From IMG/VR virus record IMGVR_UViG_3300019752_000027, positions 1 through 20,074 of that record: DNA of 20,074 nucleotides; one strand, written 5' to 3'. This DNA comes from a virus. How positions within the stretch are numbered: position 1 is the stretch's first letter; the number at the start of each line of letters is the position of its first letter. The translations under genes and the position numbers were made by a program. This document shows positions 3,666-13,536 of this stretch, one piece after another. The notes beneath the pieces were generated by a model. It was not told the DNA's origin and made no database searches. It saw only the letters and a program-made list of their open reading frames with translations.

Positions 3666-4199
3666 ATGGCAGATACAGCAATGACGCAAGCACTTAAGGT
3701 TTTAGCAAAAACTGGTAAGATATATCTTGCAGATAGAGGAACTATCACAGAAAATACAGCGTGGATGGAGTATTTTATGACAACAGAAAACACTCTTAAT
3801 ATTGACCAAGCCGAAGGTACTACACAAGATATTAGAACAGATCAAAAAACTGCTCCAGTTTCTACTATTAGAACAGCAGGTGAGTTCACTATTTCTTTTG
3901 ACGTTCCTTCTGTGGATTCGGTTGTTTTAGCATTGTTTTTCAATACTAGTACACCTTCTTATACTCCTTCTGGATATACATCTATCGGAGTAGGAACAGA
4001 GATGAAAACTCTTAATAAAATGATGAAAATCAACTTTACTAACAATGATTCAGATGCTATCTTTACGAACGTGGATTTAGTTGGGGTTGTTACAAAATCT
4101 TCTGATGGAGCATTTTCAATTAGAGTTACTGGAACAGTTCTTGCTGCTGGTGGTGTTGGAATGGAAGCTGAGGAAATGATTTTCGTTCATAAGGACTAA
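3666..4199 (+). CDS. Major tail tube protein
   Basis: A 177-residue, Thr/Ser/Ala-rich, mostly beta protein of the size usual for siphovirus tube subunits. Strands with alternating hydrophobics are visible (EFTISFDVPSVDSVVLALFF; MMKINFTNNDSDAIFTNVDLVGVV; FSIRVTGTVLAAGG). It follows the terminator-like gene and would precede chaperones and tape measure in a standard tail operon, so its role as the polymerising tube is well supported by order. Here the expected chaperone is separated from it by a reverse-strand insertion. A strong terminator at 4206-4240 follows the stop, so this unit ends here. Confidence 0.75.
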   Translation: MADTAMTQALKVLAKTGKIYLADRGTITENTAWMEYFMTTENTLNIDQAEGTTQDIRTDQKTAPVSTIRTAGEFTISFDVPSVDSVVLALFFNTSTPSYTPSGYTSIGVGTEMKTLNKMMKINFTNNDSDAIFTNVDLVGVVTKSSDGAFSIRVTGTVLAAGGVGMEAEEMIFVHKD

Positions 4200-4484: not shown

Positions 4485-5255
4485 TTATTTTAAAATTACT
4501 CCGCAAGGTGTGCCATTTTTGAAAGTATAGTCTCTTAACAATGCCTCATAGCTTATTGTACCATCGTGAACATATACGTCTTTACTATTGCAGCTAACTA
4601 CATATAGCCCTTCTTTAATTATTTTAGATATTATCCAGTTATTGTTTACTTCTATAAACTCCTCCATAGTGAAAGGTCTATACTTAGCCGCATGCTCTTT
4701 AATGTACTTCTCGGCACTTTCTTTTGTCATTATTTCAGACCTTACGTCTTCAATAGCCGTATATGTTTCAATATATATATTTCCTATATTGCAATGATAA
4801 ATCTTATAATCCTTAAAAGAAAACATCCAAACGATATCACCCTCAAAAAACTCCTCACCAAGAGAATTAACAAACAAAGGCTTAGGCTTATTATCAGCCT
4901 CCCATTGTTTTATTGTTTTGCAGTGCATAAATGCACAAATAACTCCCCTTTCATCTAATGCTACAATAGGATAATTATTCGTACGTCGAGGATTTGTGGA
5001 TAAATCAGCAAACACATCTAGCTTTATAGCATCCTTTTCACTAACATCCCAAACATACATATAATTAGGCTCTTGCTCCTGTTTTGCAAGTTTGAATCTT
5101 CTTTTTTTGTATTGACCAACAAACTTACCATCCTTCGTGACTCCTATATGAAAATCACCAACAGACTCAACTTCATATTTATTACCAAGTTCTAGATCAC
5201 AACCTACTACCTCAACACACTCAACTAAATCACCTTCTTTAAATTTATTTTCCAT
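4485..5255 (-). CDS. Hypothetical protein with SH3-like N-terminal domain (first cassette)
   Basis: A 256-residue soluble protein. Residues 1-56 form a compact beta unit of a kind found in many small Bacteroidota phage proteins (KFKEGDLVECVEVV, NKYEVESVGDFHIGV, ending RRFKL), which I read as an SH3/KOW-like barrel. A second, similar 'EFFEGDIVWMF' module starts near residue 137, followed by a helix with TKESAEKYIKEHA. No catalytic motif is seen. It lacks a signal peptide and membrane segments, so it probably acts in the cytoplasm. The start at 5255 is chosen because it lies 24 bases downstream of a Bacteroidota -7 box inside the 100-bp repeat. It is oriented against the tail genes, so it behaves like a moron; function unknown. 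Confidence 0.7.
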   Translation of the reverse strand: MENKFKEGDLVECVEVVGCDLELGNKYEVESVGDFHIGVTKDGKFVGQYKKRRFKLAKQEQEPNYMYVWDVSEKDAIKLDVFADLSTNPRRTNNYPIVALDERGVICAFMHCKTIKQWEADNKPKPLFVNSLGEEFFEGDIVWMFSFKDYKIYHCNIGNIYIETYTAIEDVRSEIMTKESAEKYIKEHAAKYRPFTMEEFIEVNNNWIISKIIKEGLYVVSCNSKDVYVHDGTISYEALLRDYTFKNGTPCGVILK

Positions 5256-5278
5256 ATCATTAATTTTTAATTACCCTA

Positions 5279-5309
5279 CAAACATAAAGCTAATTTCCCA
5301 CAATTCCAA
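5279..5309 (-). promoter_or_regulatory. Bacteroidota-type promoter for the first reverse-strand cassette
   Basis: On the reverse strand a TTG element (5307-5309) is followed by 20 bases and TATGTTTG (5279-5286), matching the Bacteroidota -33/-7 consensus TTG ... TAnnTTTG. Transcription would start a few bases beyond, leaving a leader of roughly 20 bases before the ATG at 5255. The leader contains the AT-rich dyad TAATT-TTT-AATTA. Confidence 0.75.
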
Positions 5310-5337
5310 GCAATTTTAAGAATTAATTTTTTTTCGT

Positions 5338-5345
5338 TATCTTTA
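5338..5345 (+). promoter_or_regulatory. Possible -7 element for the chaperone gene
   Basis: TATCTTTA matches TAnnTTTG at all but the last base and lies 21 bases upstream of the chaperone ATG, downstream of a long T-rich tract. It is preserved in the second copy of the repeat (7529-7536), also facing a + strand tail gene. Because a terminator at 4206 closes the upstream transcript, a promoter here is needed for good chaperone expression. No clear -33 TTG is visible, so this could depend on a phage factor. Confidence 0.45.
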
Positions 5346-5366
5346 CAACACATAAAATGAGAGATT

Positions 5367-5882
5367 ATGAGTGAAGAAATCAAAAGAGAAGCTGACATAA
5401 GAGCGCAGCAATTACAGATAGCATTATTAGAGGATAGGTCTTTCCCTACTAAAATAGGCAAGAAAACATATAAGTGCAAATATCTTAACAGTTGGACGCA
5501 AAGAAAGATTACTAATGTACTGTTAAAAGCAGAAGCTATTGATGAAAACGGAGGAATAGAAAACGTATTCAAAGCCGTAAACAAAAGTGGAACATTAGCA
5601 CCAAAAGTAGTATCGTATCTAATATTAAGACATCCAATAAAAGTCAAGCTATTTCACTGGTTATTCTGGCGCTATTTAGACATGACAACAAACTCTAGGG
5701 ATTTATACGATCCACTACTAAAGGCTCTTAAAGCGGCTGATGTTAATTTTTTTTTGACCAATATGGGATTGATGTCGGAAATAGTAATGACGAGGAAGAT
5801 ATGGACAGCGAAGGAAGTTGCAGCGATCCAAGCAAGTCAGAAATTGGGGCACGAGCAGGGTGGTGTAAAGAGTTCGGAATAA
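5367..5882 (+). CDS. Tail assembly chaperone, short form (gpG-like)
   Basis: A 171-residue product, the expected G-type tail chaperone by its place between tail tube and tape measure. The first 128 residues are mainly helical and charged (SEEIKREADIRAQQLQ; YLNSWTQRKITNVLLKAEA; HPIKVKLFHWLFWRYLDM), consistent with a protein that coats the unfolded tape measure before tube growth. At codons 127-130 (Asn-Phe-Phe-Leu) the message has a T9 run where ribosomes can slip -1. Without slipping, the frame continues 41 more codons with a high proportion of G at third positions, unlike neighbouring genes, so this tail may be loosely constrained. The slipped product is described in the next entry. Confidence 0.7.
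   Translation: MSEEIKREADIRAQQLQIALLEDRSFPTKIGKKTYKCKYLNSWTQRKITNVLLKAEAIDENGGIENVFKAVNKSGTLAPKVVSYLILRHPIKVKLFHWLFWRYLDMTTNSRDLYDPLLKALKAADVNFFLTNMGLMSEIVMTRKIWTAKEVAAIQASQKLGHEQGGVKSSE
5747..5756 (+). promoter_or_regulatory. Probable -1 ribosomal frameshift site (T9G slippery run)
   Basis: In the chaperone frame the codons are AAT TTT TTT TTG, so both U UUU UUU and U UUU UUG heptamers are present in the correct register for tandem -1 slippage. The last stop in the -1 frame ends at 5746, immediately before the run, and this frame then stays open to 6109. Such a site between overlapping chaperone frames just before a tape measure is the classical lambda G/GT arrangement. No strong downstream stem was evident by eye. 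Confidence 0.75.
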
Positions 5883-6109
5883 CCACTAAAGAATACGATA
5901 TGATGCCTATTGCTTTAAGACTCATAATAGGACAAGACTTGCCTAGTATAAAAACTAAGGAGAAGAAAAACAAGCCTAAAGAAACAATTAAAGTAATAGA
6001 TTATAATAAAAAACTAGGGGAGAAGATAAAAGCTGAAATGGCTAAGAAAGCCGAATTAGAAAAGATTAATTCTGAGATAAATTCTGACATGAAAGAAGCT
6101 AAGGGGTAA
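5747..6109 (+). CDS. Tail assembly chaperone, T-like extension made by -1 frameshift
   Basis: This frame has no credible independent start: its first ATG (5801) has no leader spacing typical of these genes, and the sequence before it reads sensibly right back to the T9 run (FDQYGIDVGNSNDEED). A slipped ribosome would make about 247 residues: 130 from the first frame plus 117 here. The extension has an acidic Ser/Asn/Glu linker, then a compact helical unit (WCKEFGITTKEYDMMPIALRLIIGQD) like the C-terminal modules of other frameshifted chaperones, and a Lys/Glu-rich tail. Third-position base use is A/T-rich, like the rest of the window, which favours this frame being the selected one over 5756-5880. 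It would bridge tape measure and tube subunits. Confidence 0.7.
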   Translation, partial: FFFDQYGIDVGNSNDEEDMDSEGSCSDPSKSEIGARAGWCKEFGITTKEYDMMPIALRLIIGQDLPSIKTKEKKNKPKETIKVIDYNKKLGEKIKAEMAKKAELEKINSEINSDMKEAKG

Positions 6110-6115
6110 TGATTT

Positions 6116-6150
6116 AACCCCACCTTTTTGAGGTGGGGTTTTCTTTTATT
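6116..6150 (+). terminator. Strong intrinsic terminator after the chaperone gene
   Basis: The nine-base arms AACCCCACC (6116-6124) and GGTGGGGTT (6132-6140) enclose a 7-base loop and are followed by TTCTTTTATT. It lies 7 bases after the chaperone stop and abuts the end of the converging antirepressor gene. The CCCCAC/GTGGGG core is shared with the terminator at 4206-4240, so both reverse cassettes begin next to the same kind of hairpin. Confidence 0.85.
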
Positions 6151-6775
6151 CATAATATCTACTTGTCAACCAATCTTGCCCTTTAGGTGTAATTAAGGTT
6201 TGCTGACTAATTATAGACTTATCCTCACGAACGTTTATAACTTTTTCAATAACTTCAAAATATTTTAAATCCATATATTTCTGATAAGGATTGTTCTTTT
6301 GTCTTCCTTGACTAATAAAAACCTTATCTTTTCTAAGTTGGCTAAAAAGCTTGTTTTGTCCCCAGTTAATCATCTTAGCAAACTGCCCCACTGAAATAGA
6401 AACATCAGACTGCATTAATTTATCATGCAACTCTACTTTAGGTTGCTGTTCTAACAATTTAGCTCTATCTTTTTTCCATCCATCTAGTAATCTCTGAATA
6501 TTGTTGGGATCTGAAAAATCCACTGCTATTGATAAATAACCTCCATTCTTTCTGATTGACTTAAGAATGTGTTTTACTTCTTTTTTAAACTGTTTTGCCA
6601 TCGGTTTTCTTGATTGCATCAAAGCTTCATATAAACCATCTTCTGTCAGCATGGTTACTTTTCTATTTTGACCTCCTACACAAATTGTGTGTATCAGCTT
6701 TTCTTCACCATCAACCTTACGAGTAACGGCATACCCATCTCTTTCTTCTAACAAATCGGCTACGTCTTTAGCCAA
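6146..6775 (-). CDS. Phage antirepressor, main part: rest of BRO-N plus KilA-C/ANT domain (5' end frameshifted)
   Basis: Residues 1-75 (AKDVADLLEERDGYAVTR, LTEDGLYEALMQSRKPMAKQF, LKSIRKNGGYL) are the body of a BRO-N domain, the N-terminal DNA/protein-binding module of phage antirepressors. Residues about 118-205 (SISVGQFAKMIN, NKLFSQLRKDKVF, NPYQKYMDLKYFEVI, then TLITPKGQDWL) fit the ANT/KilA-C domain. No ATG is available: the frame can start only at the TTG at 6775, in the middle of the domain, and the missing N-terminus is encoded just upstream in the +1-related frame (6760-6867). A one-base loss in a T run at 6774-6777 explains this. Restored, the protein would be about 240 residues, normal for the family. 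Such proteins relieve repression by binding a prophage repressor. Finding it inside tail genes on the opposite strand is unusual. Confidence 0.8.
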   Translation of the reverse strand: MAKDVADLLEERDGYAVTRKVDGEEKLIHTICVGGQNRKVTMLTEDGLYEALMQSRKPMAKQFKKEVKHILKSIRKNGGYLSIAVDFSDPNNIQRLLDGWKKDRAKLLEQQPKVELHDKLMQSDVSISVGQFAKMINWGQNKLFSQLRKDKVFISQGRQKNNPYQKYMDLKYFEVIEKVINVREDKSIISQQTLITPKGQDWLTSRYYE

Positions 6776-6885: not shown

Positions 6886-7446
6886 TTACCAATACATTTC
6901 TACATTAACATCTCTATACACCTCTTCGCTATTCTCATCATCTTTAAGACTAAAATGAGCCTTGCCTTTTGTTGAGTTAAAAGCTACATCATTACTAGTT
7001 CCAGCGCTTACAAAATAACGAATATCAGGTTCATGCAAAAACTCCCCTATCGGCATAAGCGTAGTATTATCATACCTTCTCTCCCATTCTTGATTAAAAT
7101 CTAAAATACACTCAATATCAGTATTTTCCTCATTAGGGTAAGTAAAAATAATTTCTTTTATAGGAAAACTATACTCATAAGAGGAGTACCACTGTCGATA
7201 ATTTGTTATTATTCCAAAATTATTAATCTGAAAAGAATCTTTATTTACGATTGAGGGTACATGAAGATTAATTTTACATTTATAATCTCCTACTCTGAAT
7301 TTTTCTCCCAATGGAGGGAGGTTTAAAGTTGCTCCCCTTACATCTTCTATTTTAGCTTGTAACTCTAAAACTTCTTTTTTTAGCTTTTTAATCATTACAC
7401 CTTGCATCATTAGTAGATTTTTGATATCTATTATTTGATTTTCCAT
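6886..7446 (-). CDS. Hypothetical protein with N-terminal coiled coil (second cassette)
   Basis: A 186-residue protein with no family that I recognise. Residues 1-38 are a strong amphipathic helix with heptad spacing (MENQIIDIKNLLMMQG, KKLKKEVLELQAKI), likely to oligomerise. The remainder is predicted beta-rich, with many aromatic residues (FGIITNYRQWYSSYEYSF; HFSLKDDENSEEVYRDVNVEMYW). No signal peptide or membrane segment is seen. It starts within the 100-bp repeat, 24 bases from a consensus -7 box, and ends 18 bases before the antirepressor start, so both are probably co-transcribed. A structural or host-interaction role is possible, but nothing in the sequence fixes it. Confidence 0.65.
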   Translation of the reverse strand: MENQIIDIKNLLMMQGVMIKKLKKEVLELQAKIEDVRGATLNLPPLGEKFRVGDYKCKINLHVPSIVNKDSFQINNFGIITNYRQWYSSYEYSFPIKEIIFTYPNEENTDIECILDFNQEWERRYDNTTLMPIGEFLHEPDIRYFVSAGTSNDVAFNSTKGKAHFSLKDDENSEEVYRDVNVEMYW

Positions 7447-7469
7447 ATCATTAATTTTTAATTACCATA

Positions 7470-7500
7470 CAAACATAAAGCTAATTTCCCACAATTCCAA
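7470..7500 (-). promoter_or_regulatory. Bacteroidota-type promoter for the second reverse-strand cassette
   Basis: On the reverse strand TTG (7498-7500), 20 bases, then TATGTTTG (7470-7477), identical to copy A. It would drive the coiled-coil protein and the antirepressor from a leader of roughly 20 bases. Confidence 0.75.
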
Positions 7501-7528
7501 GCAATTTCGAGAATTAATTTTTTTTCGT

Positions 7529-7536
7529 TATCTTTA
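7529..7536 (+). promoter_or_regulatory. Possible -7 element for the tape measure transcript
   Basis: TATCTTTA, one base off the TAnnTTTG consensus, follows the T-rich tract as in copy A. It would start RNA around 7543, just upstream of the hairpin at 7558-7583. Since the chaperone transcript is closed by the terminator at 6116, this is the only visible candidate for transcribing the tape measure and everything to 19543. A -33 element is not obvious. Confidence 0.45.
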
Positions 7537-7557
7537 CGTAAAATTAACTAACCTACA

Positions 7558-7599: not shown

Positions 7600-10500
7600 A
7601 TGGCAGATAAAATTGGCGAACTTGAATACGACCTACGAGTATCGGATGAACAGTTTGAGAAAGACCTTAAAAAGCTTAATGAAAAGCTAAAAAAACATGG
7701 TGCACAGATGGAGAAATCTTTAACCATTTCTGCTAAGACAAACATAACAGCAGCTACAAAGCAACTACAAGGACAATTTCAAGAAAGTATTAAAGGAATA
7801 GGGAGGACTAATGATGGTCTTAAGTCCATGAATGCTTACTATAAGGATTTGGAGAAAACATCCAAAGCGGCTGCTAAGAGTACCGAAAAAGCTTCTAGGC
7901 TAGAAACGGCGGCGCTTAAAAAAGAGGCTCAAATGGCTATTAAGGCTGAATCTGCTATTAATAGAAAAATCAGACTAAGAGATAAAGCTATTACTGCTGC
8001 CGAAAGAGCCACCAAAGCCGAAGAAAGAGCTAATGCAGCGGCGGCTAAAAAAGTCTCTAATATAAATAAAGCTAATTCAGCATATAAAAAACAGAGCTTA
8101 TATTTACAAAATATTCGTACTGCGGCGGCTTCTTACGTCTCTTTATTTGCGGCTGTAGGAATACTTAATAACATAAGAAGGGTAACAGGTGAATTTGAAC
8201 TACAAAATAAAGCATTAGCAGCGATAATTCAAAACAAAGATAAAGCAGATCAACTTTTTGCTCAAGTGACAGATTTAGCACTAGAATCACCTTTCGGAAT
8301 ACGAGAGCTTCTTTCTTACACTAAACAGTTAGCAGCTTACAGAATAGAGAGTGAAGAATTAATACCTACACTTACAAAACTTGCTGATGTATCTGCTGGT
8401 CTTGGCGTGGATATGAATAGACTAATATTAGCTTATGGTCAGGTTCGTGCAGCTTCCGTTTTGAGAGGGTGTTTCGGATTAAATACTCCTGTATTAAAGA
8501 TAGATAAAACGGTTATACCTGTTCAAGATATTAAAAAGGGAGATGTATTAATAGGTGATGACAACACGAATAGAAACGTTCTCGAAACAATAAAAGGTCG
8601 TGAGCAAATGTATTGGATTAAACAGTCTAATGCAGATAATTACAGAGTAAATCATAATCACATAATGACACTTCTTAAGGATGGTCAATTAGTAGATATT
8701 TATCTTTATGAATTATTAAACAAGGATATTTCTGAATACAAAGGAGTAAATGCTATTAACGGAAATATTTCAGACATTGAGATAGAAAAAGATACTATTG
8801 ATGATTATTATGGCTTTGTTATAGATGGCAATAAAAGATTTTTATTGGGTGATGGTTCTATTGCGCATAATACAGAATTAAGACAATTCACAGAGGCTGG
8901 AATACCAATGGTAGCCTTACTTGCAGACAAATTCACAGAGCTTGAAGGGACTGCTGTCTCTACCGCTGATGTGTTTGATAGAATATCAAATAGAGCCGTT
9001 TCTTTTAAGGTTGTTTCTGAGATTTTTAATGACATGACAGCTAAGGGCGGAACATTTTTTGAAGCTCAAAAAGTACAAGCTGAGACATTATACGGTATGT
9101 GGAATATCTTAGGAGATGCTATGGATAAAATGTATAACCAAATAGGTCAGGCTAACTTAGGTGTTCTTAAAGATGGTGTAAAAGGAGCTATTGACTTAGC
9201 TCGTAATTGGGAAACAGTTGTTGATGTTTTAAAAGCTGCCGTTTTGACGTTTGGAGCTTACAAAACTGCCATGATGGTTAATTTGGTTATCAGGAAAAGC
9301 CTAAGAAATATGACCCTTTCCGAGATTCAAGCCTTAAAAGCTGCGGACGCAATACAGAAGAAAAGAATAATTACAATGAACTTAGCTAGCGTGGCAGGTA
9401 AAAAGCTAACTGGAGTTATGAAAAAACTATATGCTATTAAAGGAACTCTTGCTATTGCTGGGTTTGCTTTATTGGCTGAATATTTATATACATCATATGA
9501 AAATTCTCAAAAATTAACAAGAGAACTAGATAAACTAGCTTCCGAAGGTGTTGTCAAAGTAGGGGATTTAGTATCCAACTTTAAAGAATTAGCCAAAGCT
9601 GCACTGGAAGCAAATGATGGATCTAACAATCAAAGAGAGGCTATAGCTGAACTTAAGAGAACATATAAAGACTATCTTCCTATGCAGAAATTTACCATTG
9701 AAAATCTTAAAGAGATGAGTGGTAATTATGACTCTGTAACAGAAGCTATCAATAGAAAAGTGGAAGCTCAAATTAAAGAAAAGACACAAACAGCTATTGA
9801 TACTGAATTTAATGAGAAAAAACAAGATGCTCTTGGGACTATATCAGAGAGCTTAGTAGGGTTTCCTGTAAAAGGAGGGACTGAAAAACTTACGCAAAAA
9901 CAAGCTGCGTTTATAGCAAAAACATTTAGAAATCAATTAGAAAGTGAACTTAAAAAGGGATTAGATACAAATCCTTATGGTATATTACTACAAACTATTG
10001 AAGAGTTTGATTATGCTGGAAGTGCTAATGCTAGAATACAATACGGTTTTGACGAGGTTAGAAGAAGCACATATGCGTACAGAGACGCATTGCAAGAGTT
10101 AAGCAAAGCAGAATCAGACAGAGATACAAAACTAGATGCTGCTTTTGGATTTACAGATGTAAGAGCTAAAGATTTCAAAGCACTTACTAAAATAAGTGAA
10201 GATTACGAAAAAACTATTAGAGAGATAAACGCCAAACCATTAACTGATGATGCCTTTCAGGTGGAGACGCTCGAAGCTAAGAAAGATAAACTTAAAAACA
10301 TCATTTCTTATTATACTGAATTAGCCAATAAAGCTGATGGTTTTGATAAGAAGTTATTTGAGAAAGATAAGGTTAAACAATACACACAAGAGTTAAACAA
10401 ACTAACAGTAAACATAAAATCTTACGCTAAAGAAGTAAATGACATAATAAAAGCTAATCAGGGAGATACTACTTTTGGTCAAGTTTTTGCTGTAGGGGAA

Positions 10501-13500
10501 GATGAAGATCCGATAGAACATGGCAAAAAAACAGCAAAAGCTTATAAAGAACTAATATTAGACATTAAAGCTACAGAGGGTATAATAAAAGGACTTAAAG
10601 ATGGTGGTGAGGATATATTAGCGCAAACCAAAATACTGAAAATACTAGAAATTAAAAGCGTGGTGGCAAAAGCTATTATTGACGCTATGAATACCTCTCT
10701 ATCTAAAAATGGAGCTAAAAGCGATGGGAATATATCTAACTTACGTGCTGAATTAGATTTACTTAAGAAGATTAAAAAATCTCGTGAGGATTTAAGTAAA
10801 ATAATGACAACTGAAGATGTTGAAGCTAATATTCAAAAGTTGTTTGGTGGTCAAGCTAAAGATTTAAACATCAAAATTCCTATATCTTCTGACTCTTCTG
10901 CTTTTTATGAGCAACTGGAAAACCTAGCTGTTAGAGCTGAGAATTTAGGAGGGAAAGCTGGCATATCATGGGCTAAAGGGTTGCGTAACCAAATAGGCAC
11001 TATGCAAGTTGACGACATAAAAGAAACTGCTATTAGAGCTTTGAAAGCATTAGATATTGAAGTAGCTAAATATAAAGGAAAGTATAAATTCTACAAGGAT
11101 GTATTAGGAATTACTGGCAATGATGAATTAGCTGTAAAATTAGCTTTCGAAGGTACTGAATCAGCAACAAACTTTATTGATACGCTTAAGAAGAAGATAG
11201 AAGATTTAGCTCATAGTGGTGATTTCAATATAAATCCTAACTTAGATTTCGAAGGTATTAAAAAACTTGACAATCTTCCCGAAAAACTAGCTAAAGCCAT
11301 TAAGAAAGTAGACGATACAATAACAAAAGAGTCAACAAATACTCTTCTTAAGAGATTAAAGTTTCTGGAAACAAAAACTCCAGAAGGAATGGGATTAGCA
11401 TTTGATTTTTCTGATGTTATTACAGACACATCCAAATCGGCTGCCAAGATAAGAAGAGAGATAGAAAGTATAGTTAAAGACGCTAGTAAACAAGATATTA
11501 CTAGAATAAATCAGATTGGAGATTTACAATTAAAAAGCATATCAGAGCAAGCAAGACAACGAATTGAAAAAATGGGGGCTGCTTATACTAAAGAAAGGAT
11601 TGAAATTGCTGGACTTGGAGAATCTTATAGTAATATGACTAATGCTTCTTTAACTGACATAAACAAAATAATAGAATTAATAAAGAAGGGACAACAAGAT
11701 TTACTTAGTGGTGAAGGTTTACAAAACATGATAAATAGCCTAAAACTAGATTCAGATGTTTCTGACAGCTTGTTTGGCGATATTTTCAATTCTTCCAACA
11801 TAGATGATTTTGTTTCAAAAGTCAACGATTTAGAAGTGGAGATGAAAAATGCCAGCAATGTAAAAATAGGAACTAAAGTTGTATCAGAGGAACAAATACT
11901 AAAAATACAGGAATTTATCACGCTTCTTAAAGCTATGGGATTAGCGAATAAAAACGCTTTAGATACAACTACCGAGAAAAAAATAAAGAAACAAATAGCT
12001 GAATGGAGACAATTTAACAACTCACTGACAGATGTTATAGGTACTGTTAGAGACTTAGGGTCTACAATGGGTGAGAGCCTATCAGAAGAAGGAGAAAGAG
12101 CCTTAAATGCGATACAAGGAGTATCAACTGGCATAATGACAGCTATTTCAGAAACCAGTAAACTAGCCGTAGACGGAATAAGTGCCGTGGAAAAAGCTTC
12201 TGTTATCCTAGCTGTAATAAGCGCTTCATTAAAAATAATACAAGGAATAAGTGAAGCTATAGATACGCTTAATAACAAAGACATAACTGCACAACAAGAA
12301 CAAACAAAGCAAGTAGCTGACCGTATAAATATGGAGATGGCTATAAATAAAATAATTAGAGACAGAAACAAACTACAAGAAGAAAGTATTATTTTAGGCA
12401 AAGATGCTGGAAAATCTATGGGAGAAGCCTTTAGTTTAATGGATGAAAGTACTGCTGAATTTGATGAAGCAATAAAATCACTTTCTGAAAATGCTATTTT
12501 TAGTGATGAGGAATCTTGGAGAAACTTATGGGGATTTGGATCTAAAAGAAGCAAGGAATTTAGTTTTTCCATAAAAGATATTCTTGGGGAAAAAGGCTCT
12601 GGAGGAGGATCTGTATTAGACTGGTGGTTTACAGGTGTTTTTGATAAACTAGACTTGTTTGGGAAAGCTGGAAAAGGAGAAGCTAAAGGGAAAGCTTATG
12701 AGAGTATAATAAATACAATGAAAGAATCTCTTGGAGCTATCGGTAAAACAACAGAAGATTTACTAGATATGTCGTCTGCTGAATGGTTGGATTTCTTTAG
12801 ATTAATGAAAGAAGGAGGCAAAATAACCGACGAAGCAACATTAGGCTTAATAGCAAATGCAGAGGAAGCTCAGGCTAAATATGCTGAAGCTATGGAGAAT
12901 GTTAAAGAGATAATATTGAGCATTACTGGTGATTTAGGAAATCAACTAGGAGATACCTTAGCAGATGCTTTCGAAAGAGGTATAGATGGAGCTGAGGAGT
13001 TTAAGCATGTTGTGGAAGGAATGATAGAAGATCTCTTAAAAAAACAGTTAGTAAACACATTGTTTAAGAAAGATTTTGACGCACTAGAGAAACAAATGCA
13101 AGATTCCATGAGAATAGGTGGTGATGGAAGTTGGATAGATGATATTGAGACTTTCTTTACTAATATAGAAGGCAAAAGTGAAGAAGCTAACAAGTTATTC
13201 GAACAATTCAGAAGAGAAGGTAAAGCTAAAGGTTTCGATTTGTTCGGAGGAGATGGCGGTGATTTAGGTAACCTAGCTAAGGGAATTACTGGCGTTACAG
13301 AAGATACTGCTAGGGAATTAGCTGGAATGCTAAACAGTATCAGAGAAAGCGTTATTCTTCAAGGTGCAGATATAAAACACATAAGCGGAACTCTTAATAA
13401 TATGTATATCATACAAGGGCAAAGTTTAACTAATTTAATCGAGATAAACCAAAACACAGGAGCTATGAAAAATGCCATTGAATCTGTTTTAGGACAAGGA

Positions 13501-13536
13501 AGTAAAGGTACAGCAATCAAAGTAATAATAGAATAA
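7600..13536 (+). CDS. Tail tape measure protein interrupted by a mini-intein
   Basis: The 1978-codon frame is by far the longest gene and follows the chaperones, as expected for the protein that sets tail length. The N-terminus (residues 1-190) is charged and coiled coil (EYDLRVSDEQFEKDLKKLNE; Ala/Lys/Glu-rich repeats). Residues 190-290 and 425-530 form the conserved tape-measure domain (ELQNKALAAIIQNKDKAD; LALESPFGIRELLSYTKQLAAY; LRG joined to TELRQFTEAGIPMVALLAD; GGTFFEAQ; LYGMWNILGDAMDKMYNQIG). Hydrophobic segments occur near residues 546-564, 616-630 and 1533-1550, as expected for a protein injected through membranes. Most of 640-1480 is helical. Removing the intein (291-424) leaves 1844 residues, which at about 1.5 angstrom per residue implies a tail of roughly 275 nm. 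The ATG at 7600 lies 17 bases after a terminator-like hairpin. Confidence 0.92.
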   Translation: MADKIGELEYDLRVSDEQFEKDLKKLNEKLKKHGAQMEKSLTISAKTNITAATKQLQGQFQESIKGIGRTNDGLKSMNAYYKDLEKTSKAAAKSTEKASRLETAALKKEAQMAIKAESAINRKIRLRDKAITAAERATKAEERANAAAAKKVSNINKANSAYKKQSLYLQNIRTAAASYVSLFAAVGILNNIRRVTGEFELQNKALAAIIQNKDKADQLFAQVTDLALESPFGIRELLSYTKQLAAYRIESEELIPTLTKLADVSAGLGVDMNRLILAYGQVRAASVLRGCFGLNTPVLKIDKTVIPVQDIKKGDVLIGDDNTNRNVLETIKGREQMYWIKQSNADNYRVNHNHIMTLLKDGQLVDIYLYELLNKDISEYKGVNAINGNISDIEIEKDTIDDYYGFVIDGNKRFLLGDGSIAHNTELRQFTEAGIPMVALLADKFTELEGTAVSTADVFDRISNRAVSFKVVSEIFNDMTAKGGTFFEAQKVQAETLYGMWNILGDAMDKMYNQIGQANLGVLKDGVKGAIDLARNWETVVDVLKAAVLTFGAYKTAMMVNLVIRKSLRNMTLSEIQALKAADAIQKKRIITMNLASVAGKKLTGVMKKLYAIKGTLAIAGFALLAEYLYTSYENSQKLTRELDKLASEGVVKVGDLVSNFKELAKAALEANDGSNNQREAIAELKRTYKDYLPMQKFTIENLKEMSGNYDSVTEAINRKVEAQIKEKTQTAIDTEFNEKKQDALGTISESLVGFPVKGGTEKLTQKQAAFIAKTFRNQLESELKKGLDTNPYGILLQTIEEFDYAGSANARIQYGFDEVRRSTYAYRDALQELSKAESDRDTKLDAAFGFTDVRAKDFKALTKISEDYEKTIREINAKPLTDDAFQVETLEAKKDKLKNIISYYTELANKADGFDKKLFEKDKVKQYTQELNKLTVNIKSYAKEVNDIIKANQGDTTFGQVFAVGEDEDPIEHGKKTAKAYKELILDIKATEGIIKGLKDGGEDILAQTKILKILEIKSVVAKAIIDAMNTSLSKNGAKSDGNISNLRAELDLLKKIKKSREDLSKIMTTEDVEANIQKLFGGQAKDLNIKIPISSDSSAFYEQLENLAVRAENLGGKAGISWAKGLRNQIGTMQVDDIKETAIRALKALDIEVAKYKGKYKFYKDVLGITGNDELAVKLAFEGTESATNFIDTLKKKIEDLAHSGDFNINPNLDFEGIKKLDNLPEKLAKAIKKVDDTITKESTNTLLKRLKFLETKTPEGMGLAFDFSDVITDTSKSAAKIRREIESIVKDASKQDITRINQIGDLQLKSISEQARQRIEKMGAAYTKERIEIAGLGESYSNMTNASLTDINKIIELIKKGQQDLLSGEGLQNMINSLKLDSDVSDSLFGDIFNSSNIDDFVSKVNDLEVEMKNASNVKIGTKVVSEEQILKIQEFITLLKAMGLANKNALDTTTEKKIKKQIAEWRQFNNSLTDVIGTVRDLGSTMGESLSEEGERALNAIQGVSTGIMTAISETSKLAVDGISAVEKASVILAVISASLKIIQGISEAIDTLNNKDITAQQEQTKQVADRINMEMAINKIIRDRNKLQEESIILGKDAGKSMGEAFSLMDESTAEFDEAIKSLSENAIFSDEESWRNLWGFGSKRSKEFSFSIKDILGEKGSGGGSVLDWWFTGVFDKLDLFGKAGKGEAKGKAYESIINTMKESLGAIGKTTEDLLDMSSAEWLDFFRLMKEGGKITDEATLGLIANAEEAQAKYAEAMENVKEIILSITGDLGNQLGDTLADAFERGIDGAEEFKHVVEGMIEDLLKKQLVNTLFKKDFDALEKQMQDSMRIGGDGSWIDDIETFFTNIEGKSEEANKLFEQFRREGKAKGFDLFGGDGGDLGNLAKGITGVTEDTARELAGMLNSIRESVILQGADIKHISGTLNNMYIIQGQSLTNLIEINQNTGAMKNAIESVLGQGSKGTAIKVIIE
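8470..8871 (+). other. Mini-intein (134 residues) in the tape measure protein
   Basis: Residues 291-424 of the tape measure frame carry the landmarks of a splicing intein. Block A starts with Cys291 (CFGLNTPVL, then PVQDIKKGDVLIG). Block B is YRVNHNHIMTL, with His354 in the key position but Asn351 where Thr of TxxH is usual. Block F is DYYGFVIDGNKRFLLGDG. Block G is SIAHN ending in His423-Asn424, followed by Thr425 as the first C-extein residue. The upstream residue is Gly290. Joining the flanks restores LRG-TELRQFTEAG, a conserved tape-measure motif. Only about 48 residues separate blocks B and F and no LAGLIDADG, HNH or GIY-YIG motif is seen, so no homing endonuclease is present. Splicing itself is inferred. 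Confidence 0.93.

Follow-up and report, generated by a model that had tools for sequence, protein, structure and literature searches.

In tailed phages, the G/GT frameshift is a conserved, textbook case of programmed ribosomal frameshifting. The stretch of viral DNA analyzed here (20,074 bases, referred to below as the window), from a Bacteroidota-type phage of gut bacteria, carries a run of nine thymines at the overlap of two reading frames in a candidate gene of this kind, which raises the question of which machine slips at the run, the ribosome or RNA polymerase. The junction was characterized by the following elements.

5367 to 5882, plus strand: G, putative tail-assembly chaperone of 171 aa in frame 0 (open reading frame; profile E = 7.7e-38; homologs adjacent to the tape-measure gene)
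5747 to 5755, plus strand: T9, candidate slip site, in the codons AAT TTT TTT TTG
5747 to 6109, plus strand: T part of GT in the -1 frame, 120 codons (profile E = 5e-13)
5756 to 5882, plus strand: dual-coded stretch, in-frame tail of G (modelled helix) and -1-frame linker

A check of the open reading frames reproduced the layout described in the first-pass annotation: the G frame (5367-5882) overlaps a -1 frame that is open from 5747 to 6109, the last -1-frame stop (TAA, 5744-5746) directly abuts the T9, and 41 codons of unshifted tail follow the slip site. The heptamers T_TTT_TTT and T_TTT_TTG, at 5747-5756, are both in frame. T9 is the only homopolymer of at least nine bases in the window, in which two T8 runs (5327 and 7518), both intergenic, were also observed. 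The third-position composition previously proposed as a sign of -1-frame use was only partly found: guanine at in-frame third positions rose from 0.16 before the site to 0.46 after it, while the -1 frame was modestly A/T-rich at these positions (0.59 in the overlap and 0.68 beyond the G stop). Residues 126-164 of the in-frame tail were modelled as a confident helix (AlphaFold, mean pLDDT of 89.4 for the G model), and we therefore read the overlap as dual coding rather than junk; both frames probably code there, so that the tail past the site would be more than run-off. The T part consists of an acidic linker, followed by a conserved helical domain with a conserved Asp.

Gene position and the two-frame layout make it very probable that the window gene is a lambda-type G/GT pair. 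Profiles built with the window excluded matched the open reading frame at 5367-5882 (G) and exactly the -1 open reading frame (T, residues 1-116), with the E-values given above. Homologs of G sit directly upstream of the tape-measure gene in about 150 loci, and nearly all of the 155 G homologs, from Bacteroidota phages and related metagenomes, retain a -1 open reading frame leading to that gene; throughout the tabulated relatives, it overlaps G and heads in this direction. The earlier claim that a -1 shift yields a G/GT-type chaperone pair is thus supported by position, by the homology of both parts, and by a -1 open reading frame conserved to 33% identity and beyond. A separate start codon replacing the T run in relatives, which would have spoken against that claim, was not found: relatives without a T run exhibited another or an unrecognized slip site, and their -1 open reading frame still overlapped G.

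Structural and family searches were less informative. The G model weakly resembled tail chaperones: the weak matches that Foldseek gave against the predicted viral structures of BFVD included N15 GT (E = 0.017) and a number of tail assembly chaperones, all at E of 0.001 or more; VIA-align scores for HK97 2ob9 (Z 3.0) and YqbN 3klu (Z 3.2) were both at noise level, and a PDB fold search gave no match at E ≤ 0.001. No tail-chaperone family was matched in a Pfam search, and PHROG matches were only to families of unknown function. The only widely shared one, PHROG 12247, was matched by 13 of 49 G members (best E = 2.6e-41) and weakly by the window G (E = 0.0015). We infer that GT is produced and that G and GT act as chaperones.

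The G/GT gene is placed between the genes for the major tail protein and the tape measure; reverse-strand genes intervene, and the order is kept. The neighboring elements were the following.

3666 to 4199, plus strand: putative major tail (tube) protein, expected partner of T (PF25681 Phage_TTP_17, E = 5e-5, a match below the family cut-off; PHROG 807, E = 0.009)
5236 to 5346, plus strand: stretch upstream of G, putative promoter region (94% identity to 7427-7537, 111 nt)
6116 to 6140, plus strand: intrinsic-terminator-like hairpin (11 bp) and T tail, just past the GT stop
7600 to 13536, plus strand: tape-measure protein with an intein-like insert, expected partner of G (PHROG 9959, E = 6.5e-63)

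By analogy, G would be expected to bind the tape measure and T the tail tube. Counting the two strands of the region together, there were three terminator-like sites, versus 1.2 expected. The second copy of the 111-nt repeat (7427-7537) lies upstream of the tape-measure gene, and the two copies cover the starts of two reverse-strand genes; the repeat is a probable duplicated divergent promoter cassette, the promoter role being putative. Three minus-strand genes (4485-5255, 6146-6775 and 6886-7446) are inserted among the tail genes, with the one at 6146-6775 corresponding to a BRO-N/KilAC antirepressor. The tape-measure insert (aa ~291-435) is intein-like (PF05203 Hint, E = 1e-7), beginning at the Cys after AASVLRG and ending with HN before TELRQFTEAG; the tape measure of PF672P1 exhibits no such insert (AASVLRGTEVRQFTEAG).

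Relatives were gathered by tape-measure anchoring, which gave two partly overlapping sets of 80 IMG/VR loci, as well as 26 bacterial-genome loci, with ten annotated phage regions. An iterated profile identified G in 149 open reading frames (97 distinct); 58 further G sequences formed a held-out set, and the 155 G sequences were grouped into 87 clusters at 70% identity. Searches of IMG/VR with the single G protein or a small G alignment gave no matches, nor did a first scan of genome contigs. Using tblastn, the Parabacteroides phages PF672P1 and PF672P2 were detected at 33% identity; both carry T9 at the homologous place (CGC TTT TTT TTT CGG) and a -1 open reading frame reaching the tape-measure gene. 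The tape-measure segment closest to that of the window (78%) was found in locus L058 (1643-2101), whose G overlap lacks both a run and a canonical heptamer but keeps the -1 open reading frame; L108, L167, L257 and L297 were likewise devoid of a recognized slip site. Contigs L143 and L144, assigned to Clostridia and Lachnospiraceae MAG bins, carry the same phage type, for which a binning error or other hosts are possible. In published records, a short hypothetical gene of its own, from an internal start, is annotated at the T position between G and the tape measure (L003, 8552-8761; L164, 4312-4482; L166, 4624-4824; L169, 4608-4808).

Conservation of the T run among relatives, named in the first-pass annotation as a check on the shift, was observed in part: 26 of the 87 clusters have T9 at the corresponding position, and the other clusters have another site or none recognized. 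Across the 155 G sequences, the junction contained GGGTTTT (37 sequences), T9 (33), A9 (30), A10 (24), TTTTTTC (9), T7 (8), AAATTTT (4), T8 (3) or T10 (1), with six unrecognized; no A7 or A8 run was found at the junction in this set. By cluster, 27 exhibited T9/T10, 34 A9/A10, 8 T7/T8, and 12 a canonical heptamer, with none recognized in six.

Run length was markedly biased. Runs of at least nine were observed in 27 of the 35 T-run clusters and in all 34 A-run clusters, whereas the fractions expected from codon composition, given the need for an in-frame heptamer alone, were 0.155 (T) and 0.315 (A). This excess corresponded to P values of ~1e-15 (T) and ~1e-17 (A), which overstate the certainty because lineages clustered at 70% identity are still partly dependent on one another. 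The T9 runs were distributed over codon phases 0, 1 and 2 (9, 5 and 19 sequences, respectively); with all three phases in use, the run length is dictated neither by the protein nor by how many heptamers there are. In the other genes of the same loci, two A runs of at least nine were observed versus 19.8 expected from synonymous codon shuffling, and no such T run versus 2.8 expected; avoidance outside G was clear for A. The A runs and T runs occupy different positions in G, and all A-run loci fall in a single clade (98/80), so that a separate origin of the two is probable. On the tree, run and heptamer must have replaced one another three times or more. The generalization that T7 never occurs was ruled out by eight T7 loci in the held-out set, which exhibited 10-12 bp hairpins when folded.

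Downstream of the window T9, simple stem-loops, the only structures considered, were not detected (z of -0.32 for 75 nt and +0.44 for 60 nt; local hairpin rank of 0.25). In the discovery set, the 60 nt past heptamer sites had a mean z of -3.20 versus shuffles (27 of 28 below -1.5), compared with -0.27 past runs (5 of 37 below -1.5). At window-start offset 0, values were -3.14 and -2.26 for heptamer sites and -0.42 (T) and 0.07 (A) for runs, and the effect was confined to the position immediately downstream of heptamer sites. Two T8 representatives also had stems (z of -3.05 and -2.08). Some loci appear to have changed class: L056, a T9 locus, falls with a clade of heptamer loci that bear stems, and its own stem has been lost (z of 0.7), and L122, a heptamer locus inside a T9 clade (100/98), has a strong one (z of -4.6).

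In the held-out set, the classes could not be told apart by shuffle z (-0.60, n = 45, versus -0.67, n = 11; p = 0.46), and the strict rule that runs of at least nine have no stem and other sites have one failed there: 4 of 9 T9 loci were below -1.5, and all three TTTTTTC loci were without a stem. A local-hairpin rank test (hairpins at 6 of 80 runs of at least nine and 14 of 41 other sites) separated the classes in the discovery set (p = 0.008) and weakly in the held-out set (p = 0.04), but these p values are not confirmatory, since this test was designed only once the z test had proved unsuccessful. A paired test over the tree had only three independent pairs, with which significance is unreachable. 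Overall, relatives with a heptamer or T7/T8 appear mostly to have a stem-loop and runs of at least nine mostly to have none; on mechanism, the run-length constraint carries more weight than the stem contrast.

Several explanations dispense with slippage during expression. Homopolymers are typical sites of sequencing or assembly error, and the true gene could be a single open reading frame; this is scarcely credible, given that a like run and two-frame layout occur in the separately sequenced PF672P1, PF672P2, Dysgonomonas and Bacteroides, with runs in three codon phases. Homopolymers mutate readily, and replication slippage or phase variation, which the GeneTack authors name as a cause for poly-A/T runs (PMC3711429), could maintain coexisting T9 and T10 genomes, one for G and the other for GT. 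Such phase variation is nevertheless very improbable: near-identical pairs share the same run length, T10 was found in a single sequence out of 155, and both products should be required together. Annotations of PF672P1, PF672P2, LoVEphage and other genomes call a short separate open reading frame from an internal ATG, as would be expected if T were an independent protein, made from a start such as ATG 5801 with no fusion. However, conservation of the -1 open reading frame begins at the T run, before this ATG (profile from residue 1), and the slip run itself is conserved, which renders an unfused T highly unlikely.

The remaining choice is between the two machines. A programmed -1 ribosomal frameshift at U_UUU_UUU / U_UUU_UUG, as in lambda G/GT, with T9 serving the ribosome, is a substantial possibility, which we rate at somewhat less than an even chance. 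It agrees with the two in-frame heptamers and with the use of GGGTTTT, TTTTTTC and AAATTTT by relatives, mostly with a stem-loop, which is not obligatory, as three held-out TTTTTTC loci are without one. In E. coli, shifting is detectable at many heptamers with no stimulator present, for U_UU.U_UU.U at a level above 0.10% (PMC4066793), so ribosomal slipping at T9 may occur. Nonetheless, seven T would suffice for the ribosome, yet nine are kept in all codon phases; A runs shorter than nine were not seen in the 155 G sequences; and no hairpin, as a simple stem-loop, was found at the window site. From the first-pass reading of a programmed ribosomal frameshift, the in-frame heptamers and the shift to -1 were retained, while the ribosome as the slipping machine is not established.

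A run length of 9-10 in any codon phase, mostly with no stem-loop, points instead to RNA-polymerase slippage, a mechanism absent from the first-pass annotation. The RNA-DNA hybrid of RNA polymerase is 9-10 bp (review, PMC5009743), and bacterial RNA-polymerase slippage is efficient at nine A or T (PMC5009743, PMC1088944). Based on these sequence comparisons, we lean slightly towards RNA polymerase as the main slipping agent at T9; RNA polymerase and the ribosome may both act. Against this reading speak the outcome of the z test on held-out loci, the ribosomal heptamers within T9, and L058, with its close tape-measure segment but no run or heptamer. Standard reading would give G (171 aa), and a share of expression would enter the -1 frame at T9 to give GT, of ~247 residues (G core, acidic linker and T domain). 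RNA polymerase would realign on T9, which would fill its 9-10 bp hybrid, and add one U in some transcripts, whose ordinary translation would give GT; ribosomal slipping at the internal U_UUU_UUN heptamers may contribute some GT. By analogy with lambda, G would coat the tape measure and GT would recruit tail-tube subunits.

For the family, we consider it an even call that this large group of Bacteroidota phages sets its G/GT ratio by RNA-polymerase slippage at A/T runs of 9-10, with several lineage switches to and from stem-loop ribosomal frameshifting. If this is true for many of them, the product ratio would be conserved rather than the mechanism, as with dnaX, and what changes in evolution would be the machine that slips, while the product pair stays the same. 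GT output would then be tied to the RNA polymerase of the host or to its phage-modified form, frameshift finders designed around heptamers and stem-loops would overlook such genes, and many 'hypothetical' open reading frames beside tape-measure genes would become nameable. A search of the open-access literature gave no description of tail-chaperone genes that use transcriptional slippage, subscription journals being largely outside the search.

Like lambda G/GT and its counterparts in dsDNA tailed phages, the window pair lies between tail tube and tape measure and comprises a short G and a longer GT in the -1 frame, with the two frames overlapping. It differs in that neither a Pfam family nor a named PHROG could be detected for it (PHROG 12247, matched by G members, is assigned no function), in a slip site that in this family is mostly 9-10 A or T in a row instead of a heptamer like GGGAAAG, and in the long, probably dual-coded in-frame tail of the window G. 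A run of about nine A or T inside a coding region is also present in Shigella mxiE and spa13 and in Thermus dnaX (A9), which are not phage tail genes and for which slippage was shown by experiment. In mxiE, as proposed here, one nucleotide gained at a U run joins two overlapping frames (PMC1088944). The closest parallel is dnaX, whose homologous genes give the same two products by ribosomal frameshifting in E. coli and by transcriptional slippage in Thermus; here, we propose such a switch of machine inside a single family of phage genes, from sequence alone.
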